A stretch of 53,819 nucleotides of DNA. Origin: Candidatus Nanopelagicales bacterium. Lineage in GTDB: Bacteria > Actinomycetota > Actinomycetes > S36-B12. The notes beneath the pieces were generated by a model. The model worked only from the letters and a program-made list of their open reading frames with translations. It had not been told where the DNA came from and ran no database searches. Positions 10,338-17,010 of the stretch are shown one piece after another (positions within the stretch are counted from its first letter, which is position 1; each line of letters begins with the position of its first letter). The position numbers and the translations under genes were made by a program. Location: contig JANRCR010000054.1 of the NCBI GenBank assembly GCA_030726915.1, positions 1 to 53,819 on the forward strand, given 5' to 3'.

Positions 10338-11459
10338 CTAGGACCCGTGGGGATCGAGTACGACGTCAATGCGCTGGAACTCCTTGAGGTCGCTGTAGCC
10401 AGTCGTCGCCATGGCCTTGCGCAGCGCGCCGATCACATTGGCGGAGCCATCCGGCATCGTGGCTGGACCCCGAAGGATCTCCGCGAATGTGCCAACAACC
10501 CCGAGGTCCTTGCGCTCCCCCCGGGGAAGGTGGGAGTGCCACGCCTCGGCACCCCAGTGGATCCCCTGACCGGGGGCATCACTCGCACGCGCCAGGAGTG
10601 AGCCGACCATGGCAGCGTCAGCCCCGCAGGCGATTGCTTTGACGAGGGCGCCAGAGGATCCCACGGAGCCATCAGCGATGACATGGACGTAGCGTCCACC
10701 GGATTCGTCAAGATAGTCACGACGCGCAGCCGCAACGTCTGCGACCGCACTCGCCATCGGGACGCGGATTCCCAGGACGTCGGATGTGGTGTGTGCCGCG
10801 CCGCCACCGAAGCCGACGAGCACCCCTGCCGCACCGGTGCGCATCAGGTGCAGTGCAGCCTGATACGTCGCGCAGCCACCGACGATCACGGGCACCTCGA
10901 GATCGTAGATAAAGGTCTTGAGATTGAGCGGCGTACCGTTGGCTGACACATGCTCAGCTGACACTGTGGTGCCACGAATGACCAGCAGGTCAGCGCCCGC
11001 GGCGACAGCGGTAGCCGCCAAGCGGTCAGCCCCCTGCGGGGACACACCCACGGCGACGGGGGTGCCACCCTCGCGAATCGCTGCGATGCGCTCCGTGACC
11101 AGGACCGGATCGACGGGTGCCTCGCCGTAGATGCGCTGCAACTCGCGGGTGGCCTCCGCGGCCGGCGCCCTGCGGATGCGCTCCAGCAGGGGTAGCGGAT
11201 CGGCGTATCGGGTCCACAGCCCCTCGAGGTTGAGAACAGCGGGCACCCCCAGGGCCCCGAGCGCAATGGCACTGGCGGGGGAGACAACGGAGTCCATCGG
11301 CGCCGCCATGATGGGAGCGTCGAAGCGATAGGCGTCGATTTGCCACGCGGTCGAGACCTCATCAGCATCACGGGTACGACGGCTTGGGGCGATGGCCACC
11401 TCGTCAAAGGAGTAGGCGACGCGCCCCCGCTTGCCGCGGCCGATTTCGATATCTGCCAT
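10338..11459 (-). CDS. guaB3: GuaB3 family IMP dehydrogenase-related protein
   Basis: A 373-residue TIM-barrel protein of the actinobacterial GuaB3 group. It begins with the typical IEIGRGKRGRVAYSFDEVAI block and ends with GGLRK-like and DLKEFQ sequences of the family. The CBS domains of true IMP dehydrogenase are absent, and the loop that should carry the catalytic cysteine reads GGGAAHTTSDVLG, with no cysteine. It therefore cannot work by the standard covalent IMP mechanism. Related proteins have been linked to other purine-nucleotide conversions, and I leave the reaction open. It lies 7 bases downstream of guaB, and the pair is conserved across actinobacteria. Confidence 0.92.
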   Translation of the reverse strand: MADIEIGRGKRGRVAYSFDEVAIAPSRRTRDADEVSTAWQIDAYRFDAPIMAAPMDSVVSPASAIALGALGVPAVLNLEGLWTRYADPLPLLERIRRAPAAEATRELQRIYGEAPVDPVLVTERIAAIREGGTPVAVGVSPQGADRLAATAVAAGADLLVIRGTTVSAEHVSANGTPLNLKTFIYDLEVPVIVGGCATYQAALHLMRTGAAGVLVGFGGGAAHTTSDVLGIRVPMASAVADVAAARRDYLDESGGRYVHVIADGSVGSSGALVKAIACGADAAMVGSLLARASDAPGQGIHWGAEAWHSHLPRGERKDLGVVGTFAEILRGPATMPDGSANVIGALRKAMATTGYSDLKEFQRIDVVLDPHGS

Positions 11460-11466
11460 CGGGGTC

Positions 11467-12978
<1,512 letters not shown>

Positions 12979-13731
12979 CTACTCGCCCGAGGTCGGGGTC
13001 GTGCTCCCGCGCAGGCGGAGTACTCCGGGATGCCGACGCCAGGCACCGGCCAGATCCCCCGTGAGCGACTCACCGATGCGGTACGTCGCGTCCCTACCCG
13101 CCACCCAGGCTGCGTCAACCCAGCCCGGGTCCGTGCCCGCCGGGTGATCCGCTGCGACCAGGGCCAACGGCCACATGAGCGAGTCCCAGCCGTGGCTGAG
13201 CAGGGTCTCCAGCACTGATGGCAGGGAGGCGGTGCGCCCAGAGACCGCCGCCTGGATGATGGCCGACTTGGCCTCATGGCGCGCAGACTGCCCCGAGCAG
13301 GCCCGTGCCGCGGCATCGGCATGCATGGTCGCCAAGGCGCGATCAGCCACAAGGAGCGCATGTTCGGCTCCAACCCAATGCCACCGTGTGAGCGTCCGCC
13401 AATGGCCGATCGCACGAGATCGCGCTTCACGGTGCTCCCGATGCGCGCCCACCGCATCACCCATGGCCACATGGTCAGCGGCCAACCCGATCCCGGCATC
13501 GGCCAGGGAGAGTGCACTGTCGGCGAGTGCGAGGGCTCGCTCATCACAGGCGCGTGCCGCTTCCAGATCGCCAACCTGCCGACGGAAGCTTCCCCGCGCC
13601 GACAGGGCAAGTGACTGCCAGTGAGGATCGCCCGTGGTCCAAGGTTCGCAGACGAGCATCCGGTCCGCAGCGGAGTAGTCACCACGCGCTGCCATCGCCA
13701 CCGCGCGTTGCCAGGCAGCGGCCGGATCCAC
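12979..13731 (-). CDS. Unknown Ala-rich helical-repeat (TPR-like) protein
   Basis: I do not recognise this 250-residue protein. It is alanine-rich (blocks such as AARGDYSAADRML, GDLEAARACDERALALADSALSLADAG and DAVGAHREHREARSRA), with a repeating helix-turn-helix spacing and small-residue pattern like tetratricopeptide or similar alpha-solenoid repeats. No catalytic motif, signal peptide or membrane helix is seen. The GTG start lies 20 bases after the MerR-type stop, with no clear Shine-Dalgarno, and its stop is 9 bases before guaB. From memory, other actinobacteria carry a small conserved hypothetical gene near guaB and sigD; this could be its counterpart. A scaffold or protein-binding role is the most that can be inferred. 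Confidence 0.75.
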   Translation of the reverse strand: MDPAAAWQRAVAMAARGDYSAADRMLVCEPWTTGDPHWQSLALSARGSFRRQVGDLEAARACDERALALADSALSLADAGIGLAADHVAMGDAVGAHREHREARSRAIGHWRTLTRWHWVGAEHALLVADRALATMHADAAARACSGQSARHEAKSAIIQAAVSGRTASLPSVLETLLSHGWDSLMWPLALVAADHPAGTDPGWVDAAWVAGRDATYRIGESLTGDLAGAWRRHPGVLRLRGSTTPTSGE

Positions 13732-13751: not shown

Positions 13752-14693
13752 TCAGGCGCCGGCAGCGCGAGACAATAGCGTGATGGCCTCGGATAGGTCA
13801 CCGACTCGCTCACCACGCGGCGGATCAACCGGCCACCAGCCCGGCCCCCCCAGCAGGATGAGCGGCTCGGGACGCAGCTCGGGTAGGACGTGCAGCGGCG
13901 CCGGATCCCCCGTGGCAGCTGTCTGCGACCACACGAGCACAGCCCCCGGTCCCGTACGTCGCATGGCCTGGCCCAGGGCATCCGCAGGGGTGCGTGCGCC
14001 CATCATCCGCACGGCTACCTGGCGTTCGGAAAGCCCTGCAGCCAATGCCCAGAGCGGCAGCACATGGAATTCACTCGGGGCTCCAGCAAGGAGAACTGAC
14101 GTCACCGAGGTTGCTGTGCTGCTCCTCACACGTGCACTCAATTCGGACTGGATCGCCTCGGTGAGGACGTGCTCGACATCAATGGCTTGGCCTGATTGCT
14201 CCCACTTTTTGCCCACCCCCACCAGCACGGGCGTCACGAGATGGTCCCAGGTCCACACGAGTCCGCGGCGATCGAGCGTGTCGGCCAGAATGCTCCGGCA
14301 TGAGTCCGCATCGAGAGCGAGTGCGGCACGAGCCAGACCCCGAGCGTTGGCTGTCCCACCCGGCAGAGCGACGACGTGACCGCCTCCCTGCCTCGCCGAC
14401 GCACGGATAACAGCACGTTCCGCTCCGAGATCGTCTTCCTCCTGCACCACACGCGCGGCCTCCGCCGGAGGAACCCCGGAGAGCACCAACCGCCGCATGC
14501 GCTCCAATCGCGCCACGTCGAGAGCGGAATAGCGCCGGTGCGCGCCCGCAGCGTGCTGACTCGGTCCCAGGCAGTACCGCCGGTCCCAGGTGCGCAGTGT
14601 GGCCGGGGCCACGCCCAGGCGTCGCGCGACAGCTGAGACGGTCAGGCCCGGTTCAGCCACGCCCACGGAGGCCGTGAACTCACCGGACGTCAT
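13752..14693 (-). CDS. MerR-family regulator with cobalamin-binding-like domain (CarH/LitR type)
   Basis: A 313-residue regulator. Residues 18-75 form a MerR winged helix (TVSAVARRLGVAPATLRTWDRRY, then HRRYSALDVARLERMRRLV). Residues about 115-190 resemble the four-helix bundle of CarH, including W164 with E174-H175, an exact Wx9EH motif that caps adenosylcobalamin in CarH. The last domain has E208-F-H210-V-L-P in place of ExHxxG, followed by WSQ and LGG, matching the His...SxL...GG order of B12-binding folds. I infer a light- or cobalamin-sensing repressor, not proven. The ATG at 14693 is preferred to one at 14792, which would overlap the whiB promoter region. It is divergent from whiB and heads the likely guaB operon. 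Confidence 0.8.
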   Translation of the reverse strand: MTSGEFTASVGVAEPGLTVSAVARRLGVAPATLRTWDRRYCLGPSQHAAGAHRRYSALDVARLERMRRLVLSGVPPAEAARVVQEEDDLGAERAVIRASARQGGGHVVALPGGTANARGLARAALALDADSCRSILADTLDRRGLVWTWDHLVTPVLVGVGKKWEQSGQAIDVEHVLTEAIQSELSARVRSSTATSVTSVLLAGAPSEFHVLPLWALAAGLSERQVAVRMMGARTPADALGQAMRRTGPGAVLVWSQTAATGDPAPLHVLPELRPEPLILLGGPGWWPVDPPRGERVGDLSEAITLLSRAAGA

Positions 14694-14777
14694 GACCCCA
14701 TTCTGAGGCTCTGGCCCGTGTCCGCATCCCGAGCAACCCACTCGCCTCGAATCGACGCCCCACGAGGAGAAATGGTG

Positions 14778-14792
14778 CTCAAAATTACTCAA
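14778..14792. promoter_or_regulatory. Short direct repeat, possible regulator site
   Basis: CTCAA occurs at 14778-14782 and 14788-14792, 10 bases apart, so both copies are on the same helix face. The pair lies between the divergent merR-type and whiB genes, 9 bases upstream of the proposed whiB -35 box. CarH-type repressors bind direct repeats of similar spacing, so self-regulation is conceivable. A five-base repeat could also be chance. Confidence 0.3.
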
Positions 14793-14801
14793 CTTCAGGA
14801 C

Positions 14802-14831
14802 TTGACCAACTTATGGCGCGATAGGTAGAGT
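14802..14831 (+). promoter_or_regulatory. Putative sigma-70-type promoter of whiB
   Basis: TTGACC at 14802-14807 and TAGAGT at 14826-14831 are separated by 18 bases. The -35 matches consensus at 5 of 6 and the -10 at 4 of 6, including the key first, second and last positions. This leaves a leader of roughly 20 bases before the whiB ATG with its GGAGG. No other good promoter is seen in the spacer. Confidence 0.55.
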
Positions 14832-14859: not shown

Positions 14860-15159
14860 ATGGCTGACATTTCGAGACTACCGGGGCCGAATTCCGACAT
14901 CTGGGACTGGCAATTGCTCGGAGCCTGCCGCGGCGAAGATCCAGATACGTTCTTCCACCCCGAGGGCGAGCGTGGCCCGGCTCGCGAAGCACGCGAGATG
15001 GCGGCGAAGGCTGTGTGCGCTGCCTGTCCGGTCCTCGTCCAGTGCGCTGCTCATTCCCTCGCTGTCCGAGAGCCCTACGGGGTGTGGGGTGGCATGAGCG
15101 AGGATGAGCGCGAGGGAATCTACCTGCTGCAGCGTCAGGGCCTTGCCGCAGCCGTCTAA
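14860..15159 (+). CDS. whiB: WhiB-family iron-sulfur transcription regulator (WhiD/WhiB3 type)
   Basis: A 99-residue WhiB protein that binds a [4Fe-4S] cluster sensitive to oxygen and nitric oxide and acts with the primary sigma factor. The four ligands are C23, C53, C56 and C62 (C-x29-C-x2-C-x5-C), followed by the G[VI]WGG turn at 74-78. The expected basic C-terminal DNA-contact tail is short and weak here (YLLQRQGLAAAV). The ATG has GGAGG 4-5 bases upstream. Position between groEL1 and guaB matches Streptomyces whiD and mycobacterial whiB3, so orthology is likely. The bldM and sigD genes found near here in Streptomyces are absent. It is the only plus-strand gene for several kilobases. Confidence 0.93.
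   Translation: MADISRLPGPNSDIWDWQLLGACRGEDPDTFFHPEGERGPAREAREMAAKAVCAACPVLVQCAAHSLAVREPYGVWGGMSEDEREGIYLLQRQGLAAAV

Positions 15160-15276: not shown

Positions 15277-17010
<1,734 letters not shown>

Follow-up and report, generated by a model that had tools for sequence, protein, structure and literature searches.

A CarH/LitR-like regulator gene facing whiB3 in a Nanopelagicales bacterium: conserved linkage, a shared promoter element, and a possible light-responsive circuit

The litR-whiB locus

The window, that is, the whole stretch of 53,819 nucleotides analyzed here, contains a litR-like gene (13752 to 14693, minus strand) that codes for a 313-amino-acid protein with a MerR DNA-binding domain and a CarH-type cobalamin-binding domain, as delimited from the open reading frame, Pfam and PDB matches, and an AlphaFold2 model. 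The winged-helix domain comprises residues 18 to 85 (14439 to 14642, minus strand) and includes the recognition helix RxW(E/D)RRY of class I LitR/CarH proteins, present as R34-x-W36-D-R-R-Y40. Just past this helix the protein has a Cys (Cys41, 14571 to 14573), where Gly stands in 76 of the 81 sequences compared (the window protein and 80 named relatives, mostly from freshwater Nanopelagicales metagenome bins); this could be a true change or a sequence error. We preferred the ATG start at 14693 over a longer TTG start at 14792, as the TTG form would enter a conserved intergenic element and conservation of the protein sets in only at about residue 16, counted from the ATG.

The gene heads a putative operon on the minus strand, followed by a gene for a TPR-like protein (12979 to 13731), probably the second gene of the operon and kept in this position in part of the relatives, guaB (IMP dehydrogenase, 11467 to 12969), and a gene for a guaB3-type IMP dehydrogenase-related protein (10338 to 11459), with gaps of ~20, 9, and 7 bp. 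Divergent from litR lies a whiB gene (14860 to 15159, plus strand), whose product has four Cys residues and matches Pfam Whib at 4.3e-25. We assign it to the WhiB3/WhiD type, as the comparison with solved structures gives WhiB3 (8cwr/8cyf) at 2.8e-34, followed by WhiB1 at 2.6e-16. The conserved outer neighbor is groEL (15277 to 16896, minus strand). An earlier sequence-only reading of this DNA had litR facing whiB and heading the guaB operon, and had pointed to bldM at the matching place in Streptomyces; the arrangement is as described, and in the Streptomyces-type genomes checked a BldM-like response regulator does face whiD, where litR stands here.

Predicted cobalamin-binding residues and putative light switch

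MerR_1 (5.7e-15) and B12-binding_2 (5.3e-7) are both above the Pfam cutoffs, and the Pfam B12-binding profile stays below its own (24.6 bits versus 32.1). The top match in the PDB by phmmer is CarH (5c8d, 2.4e-14). The region that had attracted attention, 14064 to 14204, runs from codon W164 to codon H210 when the frame is read from the ATG. The adenosyl-cap motif Wx9EH that had been noted there is exact (W164, E174, and H175; 14169 to 14204, minus strand), and it aligns with W131, E141, and H142 of Thermus thermophilus CarH. The motif of the lower axial cobalt ligand, E208-x-H210-x-x-P213 (14055 to 14072, minus strand), has H210 in the place of CarH H177. In the MAFFT alignment E208 also equals E175, and phmmer against 5c8d agrees with these pairs, so W164, H175, and H210 fall in register at the ligand positions.

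The published CarH motif reads D/ExHx2(G/P)x41Sx(T/V)x22-27GG (PMC9304148). Here, ExHx2P is followed after 42 residues, one more than the published first spacer, by S256-Q-T258 within WSQT (255 to 258; 13920 to 13931, minus strand), and after another 23 by G282-G283 (13845 to 13850, minus strand), so the distances proposed from the letters were right. The Pro in place of Gly had been recorded correctly, but it is not unusual: it is the majority state in the litR clade (67/81 sequences) and is within the published motif. The ExHxLP variant is also found in Streptomyces LitR copies, one of them neighboring genes for an ECF sigma factor and for lycopene cyclase. We considered Pro213 as a sign of lost B12 binding and rejected this, given the G/P of the motif and the Pro of the crt-linked Streptomyces LitR.

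The ligand residues do not appear by chance, as H175 and H210 are invariant in all 81 actinomycete LitR sequences; 78 of them have E174 and 73 have W164. Every one of the 63 sequences of the alignment used for folding matches B12-binding_2, and the AlphaFold2 model built from it reaches a pLDDT of 90. Among solved structures, this model is matched best by the CarH cobalamin domain and by photocobilins, with Z about 20; with CarH chain 5c8a, Z is 20.2 and the deviation 2.4 Å over 189 residues, and ~25% of the residues paired by fold are identical. Model residues 114 to 307 lie on residues 81 to 274 of the CarH chain, the same register of 33 as in the sequence alignment. Together with B12-binding_2, this fold match gives the two-part cobalamin-binding domain, a helix bundle plus a Rossmann part. 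The CarH/LitR-like identity first suggested for this product is therefore supported by profiles, residue alignment, predicted fold, conservation, and phylogeny, and the protein very likely binds cobalamin.

The host genome (2.2 Mb, 95% complete) contains a PduO-type cobalamin adenosyltransferase; the CobO type was not found in it, and the PduO type serves in its place. Apart from LitR, the genome has just one B12-binding_2 protein, a corrinoid protein of 218 amino acids (L001:1081-1737) next to an IclR-type regulator. We found no B12-binding ORF of methionine synthase size in the host genus, which seems to be without a full-length cobalamin methionine synthase.

Thermus CarH has the same fold, AdoCbl ligand residues, and MerR recognition helix, but the protein studied here is without other residues of that system. 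The position of His132 is occupied by Glu165, and none of the 81 sequences has His there. In the Thermus CarH tetramer, R176-D201 is the dimer salt bridge and G160/G192 are at the dimer-dimer interface; here these residues are F209, R234, S192, and Q225, and they are unconserved. His132 is the upper cobalt ligand of Thermus CarH in the light state, and the H132A variant largely keeps its tetramer under illumination (PMC10442372). With His132 and the tetramer-interface residues absent, and an NCBIfam CarH equivalog score far below the cutoff (61 bits versus 400), we class the protein with the actinomycete class I LitR rather than with Thermus-type CarH. The alignment indicates that the ligands of the dark state are all retained but that the light switch must differ from that of Thermus CarH. 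A natural CarH-type protein lacking His132 would add to the debate over how CarH switches.

A close comparison is Streptomyces LitR, with the same domain layout, ExHxLP, and, as here, no His after the cap Trp (the S. atratus copy is 44% identical), although it has Wx10EH instead of the exact Wx9EH. The LitR of S. coelicolor has been reported as a coenzyme B12 photosensor that acts on the litS promoter (PMC12705666). This bears on the alternative that fares best, in which the protein would bind AdoCbl but report cobalamin or redox/oxygen state rather than light, the photolyzed form staying on DNA and the difference between apo and holo forms being the signal. The absence of His132 from all 81 sequences, the mostly tetrameric H132A variant (PMC10442372), and a redox-type regulator, whiB3, as neighbor would all fit such a sensor. 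Nevertheless, the adenosyl cap W, E, and H is retained, and four Streptomyces plasmid LitR copies are also W-E at the cap while the S. coelicolor protein is reported as a light sensor (PMC12705666), so we regard this alternative as unlikely. That the LitR-like protein responds to light seems to us likely.

Linkage to whiB3 and the intergenic element

A query with the single LitR-like protein gave no related loci, and an alignment query retrieved them. The order groES-groEL / whiB / litR / guaB-guaB3 is found in nearly all Nanopelagicales loci, and the same groEL/whiB/litR/guaB order appears in Lentzea, Saccharothrix, Pseudonocardia, and Actinocrispum (Pseudonocardiaceae), Motilibacter, and Frankiales. 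Other litR copies have different neighbors: those of Actinomadura adjoin photolyase and ECF sigma factor genes, and some Streptomyces plasmid copies are in the litS/lycopene-cyclase arrangement. Streptomyces LitR is also divergent from the gene of a transcription initiation factor, in that case the LitS sigma factor instead of a WhiB, with litS and crt genes as neighbors where whiB3 and the guaB operon stand here. A WhiB3/WhiD-type whiB is at the corresponding place in the WhiD-BldM loci of Streptomyces and the WhiB3 loci of mycobacteria, which have neither LitR nor the conserved element described below; the TPR-like gene follows whiB3 in mycobacterial-type genomes, and in some of these loci groEL and the TPR-like gene adjoin whiB.

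With distant relatives as the root of the LitR tree, whiB-linked copies diverge ahead of the photolyase- and Streptomyces-linked ones and also surround them. The linkage pattern needs three changes and may have a single origin, branch support being moderate. Two deep relatives outside the groups of the tree also adjoin a whiB, and together with the branching order this indicates that linkage to whiB is probably ancestral. One genome (G298) has two LitR-like genes (L176 and L042), each with its own whiB, which suggests that the two genes were copied or relocated together. In another actinomycete family, a gene beside whiB/groEL (L154:2063-3148) has a closely related MerR domain and a C terminus without Wx9EH and ExH, and we take it for a LitR that has decayed in place.

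The gap between litR and whiB contains a predicted whiB promoter (14802 to 14831, plus strand), with -35 TTGACC (14802 to 14807), an 18-bp spacer, and -10 TAGAGT (14826 to 14831); relatives share the -35 box. The conserved element CTTGACCAACTTATGGCGCGAT (14801 to 14822, plus strand) spans the -35 box and the greater part of the spacer. Of 80 related loci, 70 have this element: 70 of the 73 that are whiB-linked and none of the 7 unlinked litR loci. Counts of TTGNNCAA (65 of 74 litR-whiB gaps; shuffled mean, 4.3) and of the extended core (69/74; shuffled mean, 0.02) are inflated by shared descent. Columns outside the anchor (C-11, G-10, and C-6) are invariant across orders, in a gap that has otherwise diverged.

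Overlapping the promoter is a putative LitR operator (14785 to 14809), an inverted repeat with arms TTACTCAA (14785 to 14792) and TTGACCAA (14802 to 14809). Across the genome, the intact repeat is matched perfectly only once, with no second good match. Set against Thermus CarH operators, the site has the appearance of an inverted repeat to which an incomplete 11-bp repeat is added: the first arm, which overlaps the -35 box, is partly repeated after 11 bp (TGACCA/TGGCGC), and there is the inverted arm as well. To some degree this resembles the 11-bp units of CarH operators (consensus nnnnTnnACAn, in tandem over the promoter), and known CarH operators also span the -35 box (PMC9304148).

Upstream of whiD/whiB3 genes in litR-less loci (6 Streptomyces-type and 5 mycobacterial-type), the core was not found; a lone TTGTGCAA is upstream in two of the five mycobacterial-type whiB3 loci. 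One core match, at about 2103 in L162 and ~0.3 kb from the whiB start, has another composition and was read as chance. In that form, TTGNNCAA was not found in the Actinomadura photolyase-litR or Streptomyces litS-litR gaps, which carry other repeats, so the assignment of the element to LitR comes from linkage and position, and it is on these grounds that we infer LitR to be its binder. The Actinomadura gaps have TTGCAACC-type repeats and the Streptomyces ones 11-bp direct repeats like GTGCGTCGTTT (L110, L112, L123, and L063), which are probably the LitR operators of those lineages.

LitR is present in 66 of the 85 genomes of the family, and WhiB3-type matches track it closely, part of this pattern being due to contig breaks. 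We did not count one near-complete genome without LitR (G020) as a loss, as it may reflect a contig edge. The whiB matches in the LitR-less genomes of the family are probably a different paralogue (54 to 57%). The sister genus g11 has litR in none of nine genomes. In four of them groEL and guaB are on one contig with neither litR nor whiB3 in between; the distance is about 0.1 kb in two, and a small unrelated ORF lies there in the other two. The joint loss of litR and whiB3 in this genus is real. Small ORFs that resemble each other (L183:5501-6145 and L186:6279-7022) were seen between groEL and guaB in two genomes without litR and whiB3.

The sister genus retains crtB and photolyase genes, and its joint loss of litR and whiB3 is consistent with the two working as one unit. 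As possible evidence for the ligand or the targets, we asked whether genes for cobalamin adenosyltransferase, carotenoids, or photolyase disappear along with LitR; they do not, the LitR-less genus keeping all of them. The co-occurrence with carotenoid genes that had been proposed for checking holds for the host genome, which has a carotenoid cluster along with photolyase-family genes, but not for this genus. No carotenoid genes are beside litR in the window, a further difference from Thermus CarH.

These patterns also weigh on a second alternative, a photoreceptor whose targets would be mainly distant carotenoid or photolyase genes, the element being no more than the promoter of whiB3 or a site for a different regulator. 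Known LitR/CarH proteins do control carotenoid genes, such genes exist in the host genome, and whiB needs a promoter in this gap in any case. On the other hand, the element is absent upstream of the litR-less Streptomyces whiD and mycobacterial whiB3, it has no second good match in the genome, and litR was lost together with whiB3 while the carotenoid and photolyase genes stayed; we find this alternative improbable. The link to redox control through whiB, first raised only as a possibility, comes out stronger from the conserved synteny, the -35 element, and the joint loss, and control of whiB3 by LitR appears quite probable.

A putative light-redox circuit

We propose that in the dark LitR would hold AdoCbl between H210, below the cobalt, and W164, E174, and H175 around the adenosyl group. 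The AdoCbl-bound protein would oligomerize, occupy the operator over the whiB -35 box, and repress or gate whiB3. Blue-green light would break the Co-C bond, the adenosyl group would leave, and the helix bundle would shift, so that DNA binding would be lost or changed and the output of whiB3 would rise. WhiB3, an iron-sulfur partner of sigma-A, would then relay the signal, as Streptomyces LitR does through the sigma factor LitS. Alternatively, light could trigger activation, the mode of action described for LitR at litS. In some form, a circuit in which AdoCbl-bound LitR controls the divergent whiB3 under light is the reading that we favor, with moderate confidence. Against it stand the missing His132 and tetramer-interface residues, the low NCBIfam CarH and Pfam B12-binding scores, the chance that the element serves a different regulator, and the carotenoid and photolyase genes kept by the litR-less sister genus.

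A CarA-like or degenerate LitR, with the fold kept and cobalamin no longer needed, is very improbable: such forms exist (M. xanthus CarA, PMC8156234), and the decayed LitR described above (L154) is without ligand motifs, but CarA is without the Trp of Wx9EH (PMC9304148) and the protein here retains all ligand residues, which are strongly conserved.

As for the operon downstream, a -10-like CAGAAT is located just before the litR ATG (14694 to 14705, minus strand), with a similar box in about half of the related loci, and the litR transcript is possibly leaderless. Direct control of guaB is not supported, as ~90 bp separate the element from the litR start, which looks leaderless in roughly every second relative; the connection of litR with purine synthesis that had been suggested would come from operon membership only.

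The conserved order and DNA signal suggest that the favored circuit, light controlling a redox switch through LitR and WhiB3, is old. More tentatively, the first job of actinomycete LitR could have been to place a WhiB3/WhiD-type regulator under B12-based light control, with a light switch that works without a bis-His cobalt state; the control of carotenoids through LitS in Streptomyces would have come later, and BldM would have taken the place opposite Streptomyces whiD. In the open-access papers searched, we found no report of a link between LitR/CarH and WhiB proteins. If true, the circuit would join LitR/CarH with WhiB3/WhiD and would hint at the origin of Streptomyces LitR and of the whiD-bldM locus. 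For the freshwater actinobacteria of sunlit waters, in which light sensing by nonphototrophic members is unsettled, it would provide a mechanism that is directly testable.
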